Of a DNA stretch of 64,000 nucleotides, positions 7,452 through 63,729 are shown piece by piece. Below the pieces are notes generated by a model. It searched no databases. It was given only the letters and a program-made list of their open reading frames with translations, and was not told where the DNA came from. Position 1 is the stretch's first letter, and each line of letters starts with the position of its first letter. This stretch comes from Anaeropeptidivorans aminofermentans (GTDB lineage Bacteria > Bacillota > Clostridia > Lachnospirales > UBA5962): positions 1,550,001 to 1,614,000 of the forward strand of contig NZ_OW711693.1 in the NCBI RefSeq assembly GCF_940670685.1. The letters run 5' to 3'. A program made the translations under genes and the position numbers.

Positions 7452-7460
7452 GCTGTATTA

Positions 7461-7536
7461 TATAGTAAATTTACTTTTCTTCCGCAGTAAGTAACGGGCT
7501 GAAAGAAGGCATAAAATCAAGGAAAAGTAAATTTAC
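7461..7536. repeat. Short inverted repeat, possible family A relative (A1)
   Basis: It begins TATAGTAAATTTAC and ends GGAAAAGTAAATTTAC, giving an 18-base near-perfect inverted repeat around a 40-base centre. The left end is identical to family A, but the right end lacks the TATA flank, so membership is uncertain. Confidence 0.5.
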
Positions 7537-7998
7537 AACACTGCTGTTTTACATTTATTTGAGTATCTGCCGAAAAAGATAAAGGACTACTTATTTCCTC
7601 CTTTTTCTATAAATAGGCGGTCTGCAAAACAGTTAAGGGCAATTTCTAAGACAGGTAAAATTATTGTTTATTTGCGTCATTTGGAGGCAATCAATATGTA
7701 CAGCCAGTTAAAGATTTTTGTATGAACTGATAAATCTCTATATAAAAGTATAGGTTGGCACTTGAGAAAAATAGCCCTTGTTTTACTTACGCTATAATAC
7801 AATTCAGGTCTTTTGTTTTAACAGGAGGCCTTTTATAATTGATTTTTATGCTTGAGTCCTTAAAATAGGATTTATTTTTAAATTTTGATTCAAATAATTT
7901 AGTTGTATTCTTTTTAAAAAATAAGAGTTATAGGTATTCGGCAGATAATCTGTTTTTGGTGTAAAATTCTTCTGTAAAATAATGATATAAGCTTCTCT

Positions 7999-13138: not shown

Positions 13139-13486
13139 ATAGGGTGTGTTCCCACGAATCTAAGCAAGCATCTAAAAAGGCGCTATTACGCCATACTATG
13201 TCAGCGTTTCCTAGGGATTGTTTATAAAATCAAAACTCTAGTCTATTTTGCCTAAAAATACGACTTCTTCGTCAAAAATCCTCAAGATAGCGCTGCTATC
13301 TCTGCGGTTTTTTCCTCGAATTCGCTTTTTTAGGCAAAACATTCGTCGGTTTTTCTATTTATAAACAAGGCCTAGCAGGCTCCTTCCAATATGCGTCGTC
13401 AACAGGATACAAACGCATGAAGCGTTTGTATTTGTTTGGCTAAATACCGCCCATTTTATCTGCATATTTATATAGTGGCACGCCCT
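13139..13486. repeat. Family C repeat with a nested palindromic element (C2)
   Basis: The outer ends AGGGTGTGTTCCCAC and GTGGCACGCCCT are inverted matches. Inside, 13210-13370 has its own inverted ends (CCTAGGGATTGTTTATAAA against TTTATAAACAAGGCCTAG). The interior carries the core shared with the other family C copies: GTCTATTTTGCC, GACTTCTTCGTCAAAAATCC and a GCGCTGCTATCTCTGCGG stretch. Confidence 0.65.
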
Positions 13487-13620
13487 AGTAAATTTAAAAT
13501 TAAACAGCAGCAAAACCATATATTATCATAGGTTTAAAATGTACCGTTTCCGAAGGAAATTTATGTTTTGGGCCTGTAGTGAACGAGTTTTGGTTACTTC
13601 TTTTGAAAAATTTACTATAA
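13485..13620. repeat. Family A inverted-repeat element (A2)
   Basis: It begins CTAGTAAATTTAAAATTAAA and ends AAAAATTTACTATAA; the ends are inverted matches to each other and to the other family A copies. It abuts the right end of the family C element. Confidence 0.7.
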
Positions 13621-13721
13621 CAAATGCTCTGCTGATTTCTAACAGGCAAGAAAAAAATACTCCCTTCGGGCTTGAATTATAATTTTTAATTCTTGCCTTT
13701 AGGAAGTTTCTTATAAATCTA

Positions 13722-15111: not shown

Positions 15112-15132
15112 TTTTACCTCCACAGTTTATGT

Positions 15133-15273
15133 TATAGTAAATTTCTCATAAAGAAGTAACAAAAGCCTATTCCTCTAAAGACTCAAAAGCACGGGTTTTC
15201 CTTAGAAACAGTATGTTTTTGAGCTTGTGTGAATATATGGTTTTGTTACTATTGAACTTTAAATTTTCGATAG
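15133..15273. repeat. Family A inverted-repeat element (A3)
   Basis: The left end TATAGTAAATTTCTCATAAA is matched by the inverted right end (TTTAAATTTTCGATAG). Inner arms are AAGAAGTAACAAAAGCC and its partner GGTTTTGTTACTA. It lies between the ATPase and glycohydrolase genes. Confidence 0.7.
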
Positions 15274-15275
15274 TT

Positions 15276-15317
15276 CCATTATAAAGGTGAAAATAAAGAT
15301 TTTCACCTTTATAATGG
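15276..15317 (-). terminator. Stem-loop after the glycohydrolase gene
   Basis: A 19-base perfect stem (CCATTATAAAGGTGAAAAT and complement) with a four-base loop lies 43 bases beyond the stop of the minus-strand glycohydrolase. No long T run follows, so termination may be partial. Confidence 0.6.
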
Positions 15318-25643: not shown

Positions 25644-27144
25644 GGACAATCCTTATAATTCGGAGGAATTTAATCAAGACAGTATTCTTAAAAATACTCT
25701 GCCTTTACCCCAAAAAAACAGCGAAAGCAGAAAGCTGGTTAAGGATTTAAAAGAAGCCGTAAAATTATCCGGCCTTGAAGACGGCATGACCATATCCTTC
25801 CATCACCATTTTAGAGATGGGGATCATGTAGTCAATATGGTCTTGGATTTGCTTTCCGAAATGGGCTTTAAAAATCTGGGTTTAAATGCTTCTTCCTTAA
25901 CGGGAGGGCAAAAAAACCTCGTAAAGCATATAGAAAGCGGTTTAATCACGAGGATTGAGGCAAGCGGTATTCATGGCGCCTTAGGGGAATATGTTTCAAC
26001 AGGCAATATGGAGATGCCTGTCATATTTCGTTCCCACGGCGGCAGAGCTTATGCTATAGCAAAGGGAGAAGCAAAAATAGACGTTGCCTTTTTAGGGGCG
26101 CCGTCTTCCGATGCTTTCGGCAATGCCCTTGGATATGTAAAGAGCGAGAATAACGATTTAATGTGCGGTTCTTTGGGCTATGCCATGGTTGACGCCATGT
26201 ATGCAAAGAAAACCATTATCATCACAAATAACCTTGTAAATTACCCCAATACACCTTTCAGCATACCGGAACATCATGTGGACTATGTTGTATATACGGA
26301 TAAACCTGTGGGCAATCCATCGGGCATAAAAAGCGGCACTACCCGCTCTAATTTTAATGTGCGTGAAGATTTAATCGGTGAAAAATGTGCAGAAATCATT
26401 GAAGCAAGCGGGTACTTGGAAAACGGATTTTCAATGCAAATGGGTTCCGGCGGTGCTTCATTGGCTGTTGCAGGATATATTCGGGAAGGAATGATAAAAA
26501 AAAGTATAAAAGCCGCTTTTGCATTGGGCGGGATAACGGCAGCAACTGTAAAAATGCATGAAGAAGGGCTTATTGAAAGGCTTCTTGATGTTCAATCCTT
26601 TGATTTGGAGGCGGCCCGTTCTATAAAAGAAAATAAGTTTCATCAGGAAATAAGCGCCATACAGTATGCAAGCATTGGAAATAAATCCTCAGCAGTAGAA
26701 AAACTGGATTTTGTGGTCCTTTCCGGCCTTGAGGTAGACGTTGATTTTAACGTAAATGCCTTAACCGGTTCAGATGGGCTGATTATGGGGGCTTTAGGGG
26801 GGCACCCGGATACAGCGGCAGGGGCTTCTTTAACCATCATTGCAATCCCTCTTACAAGAGGCAGAATCCCTTGTGTAGTTAATAAGGTTCTTACAGTAGT
26901 AACCCCGGGGAATACAGTAGATGTTATTGTAACGGACCATGGAATAGCGGTGAATCCCCTTAGGAAAGATTTAACAGCAAAATTAAAAGACAGCGGTATT
27001 AAACTAACGCCTATTGAAGAATTAAAATATAAAGCTGAAAAAATAACAGGAAAACCAAAGCCAATAGAATTTAAAGAAAAAATAGTGGGTATTGTTAATT
27101 ATAGAGACAATTCTATTATTGACAGGATTAAGCAGGTCAAATAA
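25636..27144 (+). CDS. citF: Citrate lyase alpha subunit (citrate:acetyl-ACP transferase)
   Basis: A 502-residue CoA-transferase-fold subunit that exchanges acetyl for citryl on CitD. Visible motifs are GMTISFHHHFRDGDHVVN near the N-terminus, GALGEYVSTGNMEMPV, FQMGSGGASL-type SMQMGSGGASLAVAG, and VTDHGIAVNP near the C-terminus. Full family length. The ATG at 25636 has GGAGGG six bases upstream; the ATG three bases earlier is possible. No citrate transporter or CitAB regulator is seen next to it. Confidence 0.93.
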   Translation: MNRDNPYNSEEFNQDSILKNTLPLPQKNSESRKLVKDLKEAVKLSGLEDGMTISFHHHFRDGDHVVNMVLDLLSEMGFKNLGLNASSLTGGQKNLVKHIESGLITRIEASGIHGALGEYVSTGNMEMPVIFRSHGGRAYAIAKGEAKIDVAFLGAPSSDAFGNALGYVKSENNDLMCGSLGYAMVDAMYAKKTIIITNNLVNYPNTPFSIPEHHVDYVVYTDKPVGNPSGIKSGTTRSNFNVREDLIGEKCAEIIEASGYLENGFSMQMGSGGASLAVAGYIREGMIKKSIKAAFALGGITAATVKMHEEGLIERLLDVQSFDLEAARSIKENKFHQEISAIQYASIGNKSSAVEKLDFVVLSGLEVDVDFNVNALTGSDGLIMGALGGHPDTAAGASLTIIAIPLTRGRIPCVVNKVLTVVTPGNTVDVIVTDHGIAVNPLRKDLTAKLKDSGIKLTPIEELKYKAEKITGKPKPIEFKEKIVGIVNYRDNSIIDRIKQVK

Positions 27145-27148
27145 ATAC

Positions 27149-27260
27149 TATAGTCGAATAAAATATGAAACAGTAGCATAATCCATTTGTTTTTTTCTTG
27201 TTTTAAGTTATCTAAAGCTTAGTGTGCACTTGGGGATAAAAGCAAATGGATTATACTGTA
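27149..27260. repeat. Family B inverted-repeat element (B1)
   Basis: It begins TATAGTCGAATAAAATATGA and ends in ATAAAAGCAAATGGATTATA followed by CTGTA. The arms GCATAATCCATTTGTTTTT and AAAAGCAAATGGATTATAC pair. The centre TCTTGTTTTAAGTTATCTAA is shared with the other family B copies. Confidence 0.75.
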
Positions 27261-27279
27261 ATTATAAAGGGGCAATTAT

Positions 27280-28191: not shown

Positions 28192-28238
28192 AAAATATAG
28201 CTCCGAAAACATTCCTGTTTCTTAATAATTTATACAGT

Positions 28239-28365
28239 TATAGTAAAACAAGCTTAAGGCAGGAACAAAAAGCCATTTTTCATAAACGTCTTAAAATATA
28301 GAATCTCTATTTTAAGCCGTTTGAAATATACGATTTTTGTTACGCTAATTCATTGTTTTGCTATA
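28239..28365. repeat. Family A inverted-repeat element (A4)
   Basis: The ends TATAGTAAAACAAGC and CATTGTTTTGCTATA are inverted matches. Inner arms are AGGCAGGAACAAAAAGCC, CTTAAAATATAGA and ATTTTAAGCCGTTTGAAATA. Confidence 0.7.
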
Positions 28366-28510
28366 GGTAAATTTATTGTAAAACAAAATACTTATTCCTC
28401 TAGCTGTCAGGATTTAAGAATTTATTGACTTTTCAGTTAACATATGGTAACATTTATAAAACATTACGAAATTGACATTCGGAAACTTATATAGAAAGGG
28501 TGATAAAATC

Positions 28511-29281
28511 ATGAGTCTTTTCGATTTAACAGGTAAAGTAGCAGTTGTAACGGGAGCTTCTTCCGGACTTGGTGTTCAGTTTGCCCATGCCCTTGCAGAA
28601 CAAGGTGCAAGCCTTGCTTTGGTAGCAAGAAGAAAGGACAGGCTTGATAAGCTTGCTGAAGAATTTAACAATAAAGGCACAAAAGCTATAGCAGTTAAAT
28701 GCGATGCTTCCAAGGAAGAAGAAATTATTGCCGCTGTTAAAGAAATCAAGAATCATTTCGGAAGAATTGATATTCTTGTAAACAATGCAGGCGTAGGACT
28801 CGTTGACAAAGCCGAAAACCAGTCCAAAGAGCTTTGGGATACGGTTATAGGTATAAATCTTACTGGTGTTTTCTTATTTTCCAGAGAGGTTGCAAAGGTA
28901 ATGATTCCTCAAAAATACGGTAAAATTATTAATCTTGGCTCCCTTCACAGCAATACTGCTATCAGTGCCGCTGTTAATTCCGTATCTGCTTACTGCGCAT
29001 CAAAAGGCGGAGTACAGATGCTTACTAAATCTCTTGCGGCAGAATGGGCACAGCATAATATTACTGTAAATGCCATTGGGCCTGCATATTTCCCATCTGA
29101 AATGACTGACAGCGCAGTTAGCAACGAAGGCTTTAAACAGTTTGTTGAAGCCCGTTGTCCGATGGGCCGCTTTGGCCGTGACGGCGAGCTGAACGGAGCA
29201 TTGATTTATTTCGCTTCTGACGCTTCCTCTTATACAACCGGACAACTCTTAAACATAGACGGCGGCTGGAATACCATATAA
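28511..29281 (+). CDS. SDR oxidoreductase, gluconate 5-dehydrogenase-like
   Basis: A 256-residue classical short-chain dehydrogenase. The cofactor motif is TGASSGLGVQFA, then NNAGVG, a catalytic Ser in LGSLHSN, YCASKGG (Tyr and Lys) and GPAYFPSEMT. The R-rich VARRKDR after the second strand suggests NADP. It resembles gluconate 5-dehydrogenase and other sugar-alcohol dehydrogenases. The ATG at 28511 follows AAAGGGTG; an upstream in-frame start has no site. It is a single-gene unit between a family A repeat and a terminator. Confidence 0.85.
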   Translation: MSLFDLTGKVAVVTGASSGLGVQFAHALAEQGASLALVARRKDRLDKLAEEFNNKGTKAIAVKCDASKEEEIIAAVKEIKNHFGRIDILVNNAGVGLVDKAENQSKELWDTVIGINLTGVFLFSREVAKVMIPQKYGKIINLGSLHSNTAISAAVNSVSAYCASKGGVQMLTKSLAAEWAQHNITVNAIGPAYFPSEMTDSAVSNEGFKQFVEARCPMGRFGRDGELNGALIYFASDASSYTTGQLLNIDGGWNTI

Positions 29282-29317: not shown

Positions 29318-29357
29318 AAAGCGGCACAGCAGTTAAACCCAACTGCTGTGCTGCTTT
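29318..29357 (+). terminator. Terminator of the SDR gene
   Basis: AAAGCGGCACAGCAGTT pairs with AACTGCTGTGCTGCTTT (one mismatch) and a T follows. It lies 37 bases after the stop codon. Confidence 0.85.
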
Positions 29358-29498
29358 TAATATGGGATTAAAATATTTTATAATAAAAGCCTATAGATGG
29401 TTCTTTTTATATGAGGCTTTATACTTTATTTTTAGAAGAATACACGGCTTATAATAAGAACAGCAATATTTTGGGTGAAATTGTTTACCAAATGAGAA

Positions 29499-29627
29499 TA
29501 TAGTAATATAGCTTTAAGGTAGTAACAAAAACCTATTTTTCATAAACGGCGTCATCTATAGAAGTACTTAAATGAAGCCATTCAAAATATACGCTTGTTG
29601 TTACCCTATTTAAGGTATATCATTATA
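29499..29627. repeat. Family A inverted-repeat element (A5)
   Basis: It begins TATAGTAATATAGC and ends GGTATATCATTATA, an imperfect inverted match. It contains the family segments GTAGTAACAAAAACCTATTT and TTTCATAAACGGCG. Confidence 0.65.
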
Positions 29628-29769
29628 CATAAGCGTTAAGTTCAGAATAAAAAGAAAAGTTAGAGAACATATAAGAATAAAAGACAATAGGATTTTATTC
29701 TTATAATAAATGATACTTTACTAATTTATTACAGTTTAAATACGAAATCCGTACAAATCCAAGGAATCA

Positions 29770-29798
29770 TTGAACTTTTAACTGCATAATAGTAAAAT
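29770..29798 (+). promoter_or_regulatory. SigA-type promoter of a small transcript
   Basis: TTGAAC and TAAAAT are separated by exactly 17 bases. A ribosome site, a very short reading frame and a terminator follow within 140 bases. Confidence 0.6.
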
Positions 29799-29804
29799 AG
29801 GCAG

Positions 29805-29936
29805 GAAAGTATAAATAGAGGAGCAAAATTATGAAGACAACAATTATGGTGAAAATCAAATAATCCTTATTTTTAGTAGCGCTTTTATATATTTGAATAT
29901 ATTTACTGCGGTACTTTTGCCGCAGTTTTTTTATGT
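29805..29936 (+). ncRNA. Candidate small RNA of about 130 bases with a 10-codon frame
   Basis: A promoter (29770-29798) and an intrinsic terminator (29905-29936) bracket this unit. Inside, AGAGGAG at 29817-29823 precedes ATG 29831, and the frame MKTTIMVKIK stops at 29861-29863. No gene follows before the terminator, so this is not an ordinary leader of the RNA ligase gene 400 bases downstream. It may be a regulatory RNA, a dual-function RNA or a remnant leader. The antisense frame encodes a hydrophobic segment but lacks a ribosome site. Confidence 0.45.
29905..29936 (+). terminator. Terminator of the small transcript
   Basis: ACTGCGG pairs with CCGCAGT across an eight-base loop, followed by a run of T residues. 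Confidence 0.8.
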
Positions 29937-29970
29937 TCTTTTGTAGATGCCTTCTAATAGGACGGGAATT

Positions 29971-30080
29971 TATACTCGAATAAATATGAAACAAGTATTG
30001 TTAATTTGATTTTTTTCTTATTTTAAGCTATCTAAGACCTAATATTACTTTGGAATAAAAACAAATTGACTATATGTTAA
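29971..30080. repeat. Family B inverted-repeat element (B2)
   Basis: It begins TATACTCGAATAAATATGAA and ends GGAATAAAAACAAATTGACT followed by ATATGTTAA. The TTAATTTGATTTTTTTC arm pairs with AAAAACAAATTGAC, and the centre TTATTTTAAGCTATCTAA is the family hallmark. Confidence 0.75.
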
Positions 30081-30102
30081 AAATAATTTATCAAATTAAA
30101 GT

Positions 30103-30239
30103 TATAGTAAATTTCTTACAAAGAAGTAACAAAAGCCGATATACCACGGCCTTAAAACACAGATTTTCTTCGGAAATAGTATATTTTTATGTCAAAGTGA
30201 GTGTGCGGCTTTGTTATTGTTTTATTTTAAATTTACTAT
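30103..30239. repeat. Family A inverted-repeat element (A6)
   Basis: The ends TATAGTAAATTT and AAATTTACTATA are perfect inverted repeats. The inner segment AAAGAAGTAACAAAAGCC matches copy A3. Confidence 0.8.
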
Positions 30240-30339
30240 AAAACAGCACTTAAGCATCATTAAGCGTTTTGGAGAATTAAGTCTCTCAGATTTACTTTCT
30301 GCTGTTCTTACTTAATGAGCTTTATTGGAGCGTGATTTT

Positions 30340-31128
30340 ATGCAAAACGAATTATATAAATATCCGCGGACGGCCCATATCATAGGCTCCCGTTTGCAGG
30401 CAGGAGATGAGGATTTAAAATCCATCTCCTTGGACATACTAAAAGATAAATACTTGGTAATAGAAGAAAAGATAGACGGTGCCAATTGCGGCATATCCTT
30501 TGGTAAAGGCGATGAATTGCTTTTGCAAAGCAGGGGGCATTTTCTGACAGGCGGTTATAGAGAGCGGCATTTTAATATGCTGAAAACATGGGCCATGGTT
30601 TACCGTGAACAATTATTCCAATTGTTGGGGAACCGATATATTCTCTATGGTGAGTGGATGTATGCAAAGCATACGATTTATTATGATAAGCTGCCCCATT
30701 ATTTTATGGAGTTTGATGTTTTTGACAAACAGGATAACGTGTTTTTATCTACCTATAAGCGGCAGGAGAAGTTAAAAAATTATCCTTTCATACATTCTGT
30801 TCCTGTTCTTAAAACAGGCAGAATAAAGGATATGGAAGAATTGAGCGGACTGATACAAAAATCTCTGTATAAGTCGGAGCATTGGCTGGAAAATTTAAAA
30901 GAAATCTGCAAAAGGAATCTGGATTTTGAGATGGTATTGGGCCAAACCGATAGGTCCGACCTAGCGGAAGGCTTGTATATTAAATGGGAAGAAGACAGTC
31001 AGGTAAAGGGGCGGTATAAATATGTCCGAGCTGAATTTGTGGCTCAGATACTTTCTGCTGATGACCATTGGCTGGAGCGGCCTATTATCCCAAACGGCCT
31101 TGAAAGGGGTGAGATGGAATGGATATAA
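30340..31128 (+). CDS. RNA ligase of a bacterial RNA-repair pair
   Basis: A 262-residue ATP-dependent RNA ligase. The adenylated lysine is K44 in EEKIDGANCG (motif I, KxDGxN). Further nucleotidyltransferase motifs are LLLQSRG, YGEWMYAKHTI, FMEFDVFD (motif IIIa), EGLYIKWEE (motif IV) and RYKYVR (motif V). It seals 5'-phosphate and 3'-hydroxyl RNA ends. The ATG at 30340 follows TTGGAG; an in-frame TTG 15 bases earlier is possible. It overlaps the HD-Pnk gene by ten bases, so sealing and end-healing enzymes are co-translated. Confidence 0.88.
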   Translation: MQNELYKYPRTAHIIGSRLQAGDEDLKSISLDILKDKYLVIEEKIDGANCGISFGKGDELLLQSRGHFLTGGYRERHFNMLKTWAMVYREQLFQLLGNRYILYGEWMYAKHTIYYDKLPHYFMEFDVFDKQDNVFLSTYKRQEKLKNYPFIHSVPVLKTGRIKDMEELSGLIQKSLYKSEHWLENLKEICKRNLDFEMVLGQTDRSDLAEGLYIKWEEDSQVKGRYKYVRAEFVAQILSADDHWLERPIIPNGLERGEMEWI

Positions 31129-32243
31129 TAAAACAGATTATAAATTATAAAACGCCTGCTTATAACTGGCAGGAGCGAATGAGAAAAACGCCTCAAAGTC
31201 CAAAATACCATGGGGAAGGTGATGTTTTTACCCATACCATAAAAGTTGTAGAAAGCTTATTAAGTGATGATGAATATAATAGCTTAGATGAAAATGACAA
31301 GAGACTTCTATTATATGCAGCAATTCTGCATGATATCGCCAAGCCATTTTGTACTAAAATAGAGCATGGCATGATAAGTTCTCCCAATCATGCAGTTAAG
31401 GGCGGCATTGAAGCCCGATGGCTGCTTTATCAGTATGGGTTTATGGCTGATTTACTGGGGGACTTAACCTTTTTTGAACGGGAAACGGTTTGTGCTTTGG
31501 TGCGATATCACGGGCTGCCCTTATTTTTCATGAATAAGCGTCACTTGGAGCGGGATATCTATAAAGCTTCCCTGGAAGTAAATTTGTATCACTTAAGTAT
31601 ATTGGCGAAAGCAGATGTAAACGGGCGTATATCCAATGACCATGAAGGATTAATGGAGCGGATTAGGCTGTTTCGGGAAACCTGTGAAGAATTTGGCTGT
31701 CTGCATAAGCCGAAAGAATTTATCAGCCGAAAAAGTATGGTGAAATACTTCAGCCGAAGTGAGCAATATCTATATTATGAGCCCTATGCAAATAGGCCCA
31801 AGGTTTATTTGATGAGCGGTTTGCCGGCCTCCGGAAAAGATACGTATATTAAAGAAAATTTATCCCATATGGACTTGGTTTCTCTGGATGGAATCAGGGA
31901 AAGGTTAAAGGTCAGCCCAATCGAAAATCAGGGTAAGGTAGTAAATGAAGCCAAGGCCATGGGAAAACAGTTTATGGCAAAGGATAAAGAATTTGTATGG
32001 AATGCTACAAATCTGACTTTGACAATGAGGGCTTCATTAATTGATTTATTCAGGCAATATGATTATGAAGTAAGTATTATATATTGTGAAGTTCCGTTTA
32101 ATTTACTTTTGGAGCGGAACGAAAGAAGAGAGCGGCCTGTGACGGAGCAGGCGATAGACCGTATGGTAAAAACTTTAGATGTGCCTAAGACATGGGAGGC
32201 AGAGGAGATTATATATCATGTGGAGGATAATCGGGAAGGATAG
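31119..32243 (+). CDS. HD-Pnk: HD phosphohydrolase fused to polynucleotide 5'-kinase
   Basis: A 374-residue bifunctional end-healing enzyme. The N-terminal HD domain (about 1-200) has H39 in FTHT, H71-D72 in ILHDIAKPF and D166 in ILAKADVNGR, the metal-binding set that removes 2',3'-cyclic or 2'-phosphates. The C-terminal kinase (about 225-374) has the P-loop GLPASGKDT (234-242), D257 in SLDGIRERL as the likely general base, and an arginine-rich lid (LLERNERRERPV). The arrangement matches the characterised HD-Pnk of Runella slithyformis. With the overlapping ligase gene it forms a complete heal-and-seal pathway for broken tRNA or other RNA. Confidence 0.88.
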   Translation: MDIIKQIINYKTPAYNWQERMRKTPQSPKYHGEGDVFTHTIKVVESLLSDDEYNSLDENDKRLLLYAAILHDIAKPFCTKIEHGMISSPNHAVKGGIEARWLLYQYGFMADLLGDLTFFERETVCALVRYHGLPLFFMNKRHLERDIYKASLEVNLYHLSILAKADVNGRISNDHEGLMERIRLFRETCEEFGCLHKPKEFISRKSMVKYFSRSEQYLYYEPYANRPKVYLMSGLPASGKDTYIKENLSHMDLVSLDGIRERLKVSPIENQGKVVNEAKAMGKQFMAKDKEFVWNATNLTLTMRASLIDLFRQYDYEVSIIYCEVPFNLLLERNERRERPVTEQAIDRMVKTLDVPKTWEAEEIIYHVEDNREG

Positions 32244-32254
32244 GCTTGAATTAA

Positions 32255-32350
32255 TATAAAATAGCAGAGCAGTCAATTTGCTTTTTTCTTATTTTATATC
32301 CTGTAAGGCAAATATTTATAGCAGAATAAAAGTAAATCGGCTGTAGACCA
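32255..32350. repeat. Degenerate family B element (B3)
   Basis: AGTCAATTTGCTTTTTTCTT and TTTTATATCC in the centre, and AGAATAAAAGTAAATCGGCT at the right, match the family; the left end is lost. Confidence 0.6.
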
Positions 32351-32384
32351 TAAGCAAAGCTAATCCTTAAGAAAGATAATAGCA

Positions 32385-32420: not shown

Positions 32421-32463
32421 GATACAAGAAGGTACTTTGCTTAGAGAGACAGCTTCTTTCAAT

Positions 32464-40240: not shown

Positions 40241-40348
40241 TATATAGTCCATTTGCTTTTATTCCAAAGCGTGTTTTTGGATTGAGACGACTTTAAATAA
40301 GCGAAAAGCAAACGGACAATGATACTATTTCATATTTAATCAAGTATA
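40241..40348. repeat. Family B inverted-repeat element (B4, reverse orientation)
   Basis: The reverse strand begins TATACTTGATTAAATATGAA and ends GGAATAAAAGCAAATGGACT followed by ATATA, matching copies B1 and B5. Confidence 0.75.
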
Positions 40349-40463
40349 CGCTAAATAAAAAAGACATGACAAAGCCCCACGAATGCCGTAAGTAGAAGGC
40401 TTGAAATTATTTGACTTAATATATGGAATAAAGAATGAATCTTTCATGAACAATTCTTATATG

Positions 40464-46951: not shown

Positions 46952-47017
46952 AAAAGCAGAAATTATTTATTAAGAAGCAAAACTTTAATATTATTATTGA
47001 TGCTTATAAAATTTATT

Positions 47018-47128
47018 TATACTTGATTCCATATGAAATAGAATCATTGTCAAATTGCTTCTCTCTTATTTTAAGCTGCCTTAATTCCAATATTCATTTC
47101 AGAATAAAAGCAGATTGACTATACTATA
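47018..47128. repeat. Family B inverted-repeat element (B5)
   Basis: It begins TATACTTGATTCCATATGAA and ends AGAATAAAAGCAGATTGACT followed by ATACTATAA. The arm GTCAAATTGCTTCTC and the centre TTATTTTAAGCTGCCTTAA match the other copies. Confidence 0.75.
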
Positions 47129-63079: not shown

Positions 63080-63729
63080 TTTTAATGAGAACACTCCTTA
63101 AAGAAACATTTACTGTAAAGCAGCGAACAAAATACAAGTTTTTTACTAATACTACTATAACATAGTCTTTTAAAAAAAATATAGAAAACTATAAATATTT
63201 GTGTTTTTTAATAAAAATAACAGCGTATGGATATCATTACTCTATGATAAATTTATGCTAAACTCACAAAACCATGTAAATCCAAAATAATTCATTGACA
63301 CAATATAAAAAGTAAAATATACTTTATGTATTATTTAATTTTTTATAAAAGCTTCTGTTTCAATCATAAATCAATAAACATGCCTGAGAAAGTCTACCTA
63401 ATACAGCTATAGTAAATTTCAAATTAAACAGTAATAAAAATCGTATGCTTTGAATGGCTTAAACATAGGGGTTTTATATGTTTAAGCCGTTTATGAAAAA
63501 TAGATTTTTATTACATCCTTCTGTGAAATTTACTATATTATGCAGGGCTTTCCTGTATAAAAATACAGTTGCAAAGGGTTATAGGTTACCTTTATAAACC
63601 TAAATATACAATATGAAGGAGGCAAAAACATTTTACGGTTTTCATTTGCAAATGAGCTTGCAGGATACAAAGCTTATGCAAAACTCTTTTTAATTTTACC
63701 GCAATACTTATAAATTAGGAGGTTTATAA
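63080..63729. other. Intergenic region with a family A element
   Basis: It contains family A copy A9 (63408-63537). The rest is the AT-rich promoter space of the RpiR gene and the nhaC-like gene, with no further gene. Confidence 0.55.
63408..63537. repeat. Compact family A element (A9)
   Basis: The perfect ends TATAGTAAATTTCA and TGAAATTTACTATA enclose 130 bases with one hairpin (GGCTTAAACATAGGGG paired with TATGTTTAAGCC). It equals copy A8 reversed, without the 90-base two-hairpin insert. Confidence 0.85.

Follow-up and report, generated by a model that had tools for sequence, protein, structure and literature searches.

Does a short run of expression signals in repeat-filled intergenic DNA amount to a working small RNA? 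The locus at positions 29770–29936 of the window (the whole 64,000-nucleotide stretch of Anaeropeptidivorans aminofermentans DNA that we analyzed) poses this question. There, a promoter-like pair, a ribosome site, a ten-codon frame and a terminator follow one another on the plus strand (Table 1). We favor, at about even odds (probability roughly 0.5), a short lineage-specific intergenic transcription unit with no conserved function, which would be transcribed, translated and dispensable.

Table 1. Features of the unit and its surroundings (window coordinates; SD, Shine-Dalgarno; R1 and R2, two families of dispersed repeats)
Feature	Position	Strand	Details
Promoter-like pair TTGAAC-17-TAAAAT	29770–29798	+	TTGAAC 29770–29775, TAAAAT 29793–29798; 9/12 consensus bases
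SD-like AGAGGAG	29817–29823	+	7 bases 5′ of ATG 29831
Ten-codon frame MKTTIMVKIK + TAA	29831–29863	+	ATG 29831, stop 29861–29863; without homologue
In-frame continuation SLFLVALLYI, then TGA	29864–29896	+	possible gene remnant; ends 8 bases before terminator stem
Intrinsic terminator	29905–29933	+	9-pair stem, 5 G-C, 4-base loop, T7
75-codon frame with hydrophobic stretch	29767–29994	−	TTG start (29994–29767), no SD; judged chance
RNA ligase gene, then overlapping HD + AAA_33 (Pnkp-like kinase) gene	30341–32243	+ (same as unit)	RNA-repair-like pair
R1 copies	29497–29633, 30092–30251, 13484–13628, 15123–15278, 28234–28381, 63402–63543		
R1 parts	at 32455, 35861, 36045		
R2 copies	29963–30095, 7458–7571, 27141–27263, 32242–32362, 40242–40354, 47005–47128		

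Sequence signals of the unit

The terminator is the clearest of the unit's parts and is convincing. Its hairpin, ACTGCGGTA-CTTT-TGCCGCAGT at 29905–29926, runs into the T tract TTTTTTTA. Only eight hairpins on the two strands of the 64 kb meet strict criteria, and this one, which has the longest T tract, is among them. It stays intact in the predicted fold of the transcript, where it is the most stable element, and the folding z-score of the unit is a modest −1.9. Read on the minus strand, the hairpin has no T run. Among codirectional genes of 100 codons or more, the nearest encodes an SDR oxidoreductase and ends at 29281, 623 bases 5′ of the terminator, with a hairpin of its own in between (29318–29357).

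The ribosome site is good, and such sites are uncommon in local intergenic DNA. SD-preceded short frames number five in the window's 14 kb of intergenic DNA and seven in ~84 kb of intergenic DNA elsewhere in the genome. The T-tailed terminator, the AGAGGAG and the frame MKTTIMVKIK had all been proposed in a first-pass annotation of this DNA, and each was found in place.

The promoter match is not distinguishable from chance and does not by itself assure transcription. The first-pass annotation had described a consensus promoter with 17-base spacing; the pair and the spacing are there, but "consensus" overstates a 9/12 match whose −35 element has four of six consensus bases. Sites of this grade occur at chance frequency: 4 kb of sequence contains 18, where shuffled DNA gives 14.9 ± 3.9. 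When the 271 bases preceding the terminator are shuffled, at least one as good appears in 64% of cases. Three 9/12 matches on the minus strand at 29786–29855 are likewise at chance level.

The arrangement as a whole is rarer than its promoter. Shuffling the same 271 bases placed an SD and short open reading frame above the terminator in 2% of cases and added a promoter in 0.6% (P ~0.006 per terminator), and none of 60 shuffles of all window intergenic DNA produced the full promoter–SD-frame–terminator combination. The triple is seen once in the window's 14 kb of intergenic sequence, and a genome-wide sample of ~84 kb of intergenic DNA yielded no other, while re-finding the one at 29770–29936. 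Because the unit was picked post hoc, after the whole 64 kb had been read, the rarity, which is somewhat beyond chance, counts as moderate evidence that the locus is a transcription unit. A self-contained unit, as had been proposed, is plausible because it has a terminator and a ribosome site and no nearby gene up- or downstream to serve.

Searches for relatives

The unit is single-copy, and its sequence has no relative in the collections searched. Genome search returned no second copy. DNA search covered 57 relatives and 392 genomes from the order without finding a relative; the matches listed were scattered stretches of 20–50 bases (E > 1e-4) covering differing parts of the query. Encoded as a degenerate DNA pattern, the peptide was absent from ~85,000 species genomes and from IMG/VR viral contigs. 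No Rfam family reached its gathering score, and phage and plasmid collections gave no DNA match to the unit.

These searches have a defined reach. BLAST would miss homologues diverged beyond ~70% DNA identity, and the six nearest genomes compared, though from the same family, represent other genera; conservation within the genus alone would therefore escape. The first-pass annotation had asked for conservation in relatives and had named its absence beyond the strain, together with absence of a transcript, as counting against the idea; no conservation was found, as far as other-genus genomes can tell.

Several candidate identities were set aside. Weak matches to Ref84 and rseX in a permissive Rfam scan fell below half of their respective cut-offs. 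A repeated element was rejected for a single-copy sequence, whose 19-base matches at 29862–29880 are chance matches to 16S rRNA. Phage or plasmid origin was rejected in view of the absence of DNA matches in phages, plasmids and viral contigs. The upstream SDR gene gave no usable synteny anchor, its relatives being sporadic in the order.

Downstream RNA-repair-like genes

The unit looks unconnected with the RNA-repair-like genes downstream. The RNA ligase matches Pfam RNA_ligase (E 1.1e-36), the second protein combines HD and AAA_33 and is a relative of Pnkp-type kinases, and PADLOC gave no match for the pair. A leader peptide and attenuator of these genes, later parted from them by repeat insertions, would account for the order of promoter, short peptide and terminator, which is that of leader-peptide attenuators, and for the shared strand. 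With the repeats at ~29963–30095 and 30096–30241 taken out, only ~145 bases would separate the terminator from the point where the RNA ligase starts.

We nevertheless rejected this very improbable reading. By inspection, 29799–29904 contains no complement of ACTGCGGTA and hence no antiterminator that could compete with the intact terminator hairpin; known leader-peptide attenuators have such an alternative, and here the next gene is also ~400 bases off, behind two repeats. The unit resembles none of the upstream regions of ~85 RNA-ligase homologues, so neither an adjacent regulated gene nor an arrangement common to the homologues was found. The RNA ligase itself is absent from all six same-family genomes and sporadic elsewhere. 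The ligase is scattered over Spirochaetes, Bacteroidota, Clostridia, Actinobacteria and some viral contigs.

Weighing the alternatives

A functional regulatory or dual-function RNA that works both through base pairing and via its peptide is unlikely. The unit shares with the Gram-positive RNAs SR1/SR1P and RNAIII/hld a short independent layout with a ribosome site, a small frame and its own intrinsic terminator, and it differs from them in being unconserved, having no known target, spanning only ten codons and being a predicted transcript. Neither a conserved peptide (species genomes and viral contigs) nor a conserved RNA sequence or structure (Rfam and the 392 order genomes, none of the same genus) emerged, and neither a z-score of −1.9 with the terminator as the most stable element nor the chance-level promoter adds positive support to the first-pass idea of an sRNA or dual-function RNA. 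To our knowledge, the peptides of known dual-function RNAs are all longer than ten residues. The peptide VcdP has 29 (PMC8672173). We see a slender chance that a genus-specific small RNA or very short translated peptide has a real regulatory role, which would stay invisible because close relatives are absent from the collections.

The hydrophobic stretches invite comparison with type I toxin–antitoxin systems, in which a small frame likewise lies beside a hydrophobic stretch with frames on both strands. Here the plus-strand hydrophobic segment lies past the stop, the frame before it is basic, and the minus-strand frame has no ribosome site, as the first-pass annotation had correctly remarked; no hydrophobic frame with a ribosome site was found. 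As candidate antisense signals, the minus strand shows the three chance-level promoter matches and a hairpin lacking a T run. The reverse-strand hydrophobicity follows from the T-rich complement of A/T-rich DNA. A reverse-strand protein was rejected, with a Pfam YukC match of 20.5 bits falling below the cut-off of 27.4.

The plus-strand continuation raises the doubtful but possible alternative that the locus is what is left of a gene for a small membrane protein or signal peptide, interrupted by an in-frame stop before SLFLVALLYI. Promoter, ribosome site, basic start and terminator would all persist, and MKTTIMVKIK joined to the ten hydrophobic residues after the TAA would resemble a small membrane peptide or signal sequence whose end has a natural spacing from the terminator stem. 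Only 4.7% of shuffles of 29864–29896 are open and as hydrophobic. However, hydrophobic codons come cheaply in so T-rich a stretch, and no intact relative was found: the read-through peptide MKTTIMVKIK-X-SLFLVALLYI had no credible homologue in 295 genomes, and its best match (E = 0.14) did not fall in the reading frame of any similar small gene.

Chance could also have assembled a terminator-like hairpin and a ribosome-like site that are never transcribed, and to this we give about as little credence as to a dual-function RNA. The chance-level promoter, the post hoc choice from 64 kb and the lack of conservation speak for it; a nine-pair hairpin with T7 that ranks among the window's best, and an ordered promoter, SD and frame above it in only 0.6% of shuffles, speak against it.

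Under the favored reading of a lineage-specific unit without conserved function, RNA polymerase would start a few bases past the weak −10, at ~29805. A ribosome would load at AGAGGAG and make a peptide of at most ten residues, and transcription would halt at the T-tailed hairpin to leave an RNA of ~130 bases. The mini-frame would be either fortuitous or the leftover of a small gene that has decayed, and the RNA itself is probably without a dedicated target. Most annotated bacterial sRNAs contain short open reading frames, often newly arisen, and the authors of a survey regard many of them as transient and of little functional consequence (PMC5521070). MKTTIMVKIK fits this picture of short-lived frames. 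Like the orphan frames of that survey, which are common and often recent (PMC5521070), it is short and sits within a putative small transcript. If real, the unit would add one more lineage-specific short transcript to a Clostridia-like genome and leave the general view unchanged. The locus also illustrates how repeat-filled intergenic DNA can harbor a convincing terminator and ribosome site where no gene is recognizable.

Repeats around the unit

The unit is flanked by repeats of two MITE-like families, which may prove more interesting than the unit itself. R1 lies upstream (29497–29633), and R2 then R1 lie between the terminator and the RNA ligase gene. R1 is a repeat of ~140 bases with the terminal inverted repeats TATAGTAAATTT/AAATTTACTATA; in the genome search, essentially all of the best 40 of 502 first-look candidates were full-length. 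R2 is ~110 bases long with the inner inverted repeat GTCAATTTGCTTTT/AAAAGCAAATTGAC, and its 40 scored copies are the best 40 of 218 first-look candidates. The two families probably number in the hundreds genome-wide, as does R1 by itself, an estimate from sequence searches rather than a full genome scan. A perfect 13-base inverted repeat, TATAAGAATAAAA/TTTTATTCTTATA, lies upstream of the unit at 29670–29705 and is single-copy.
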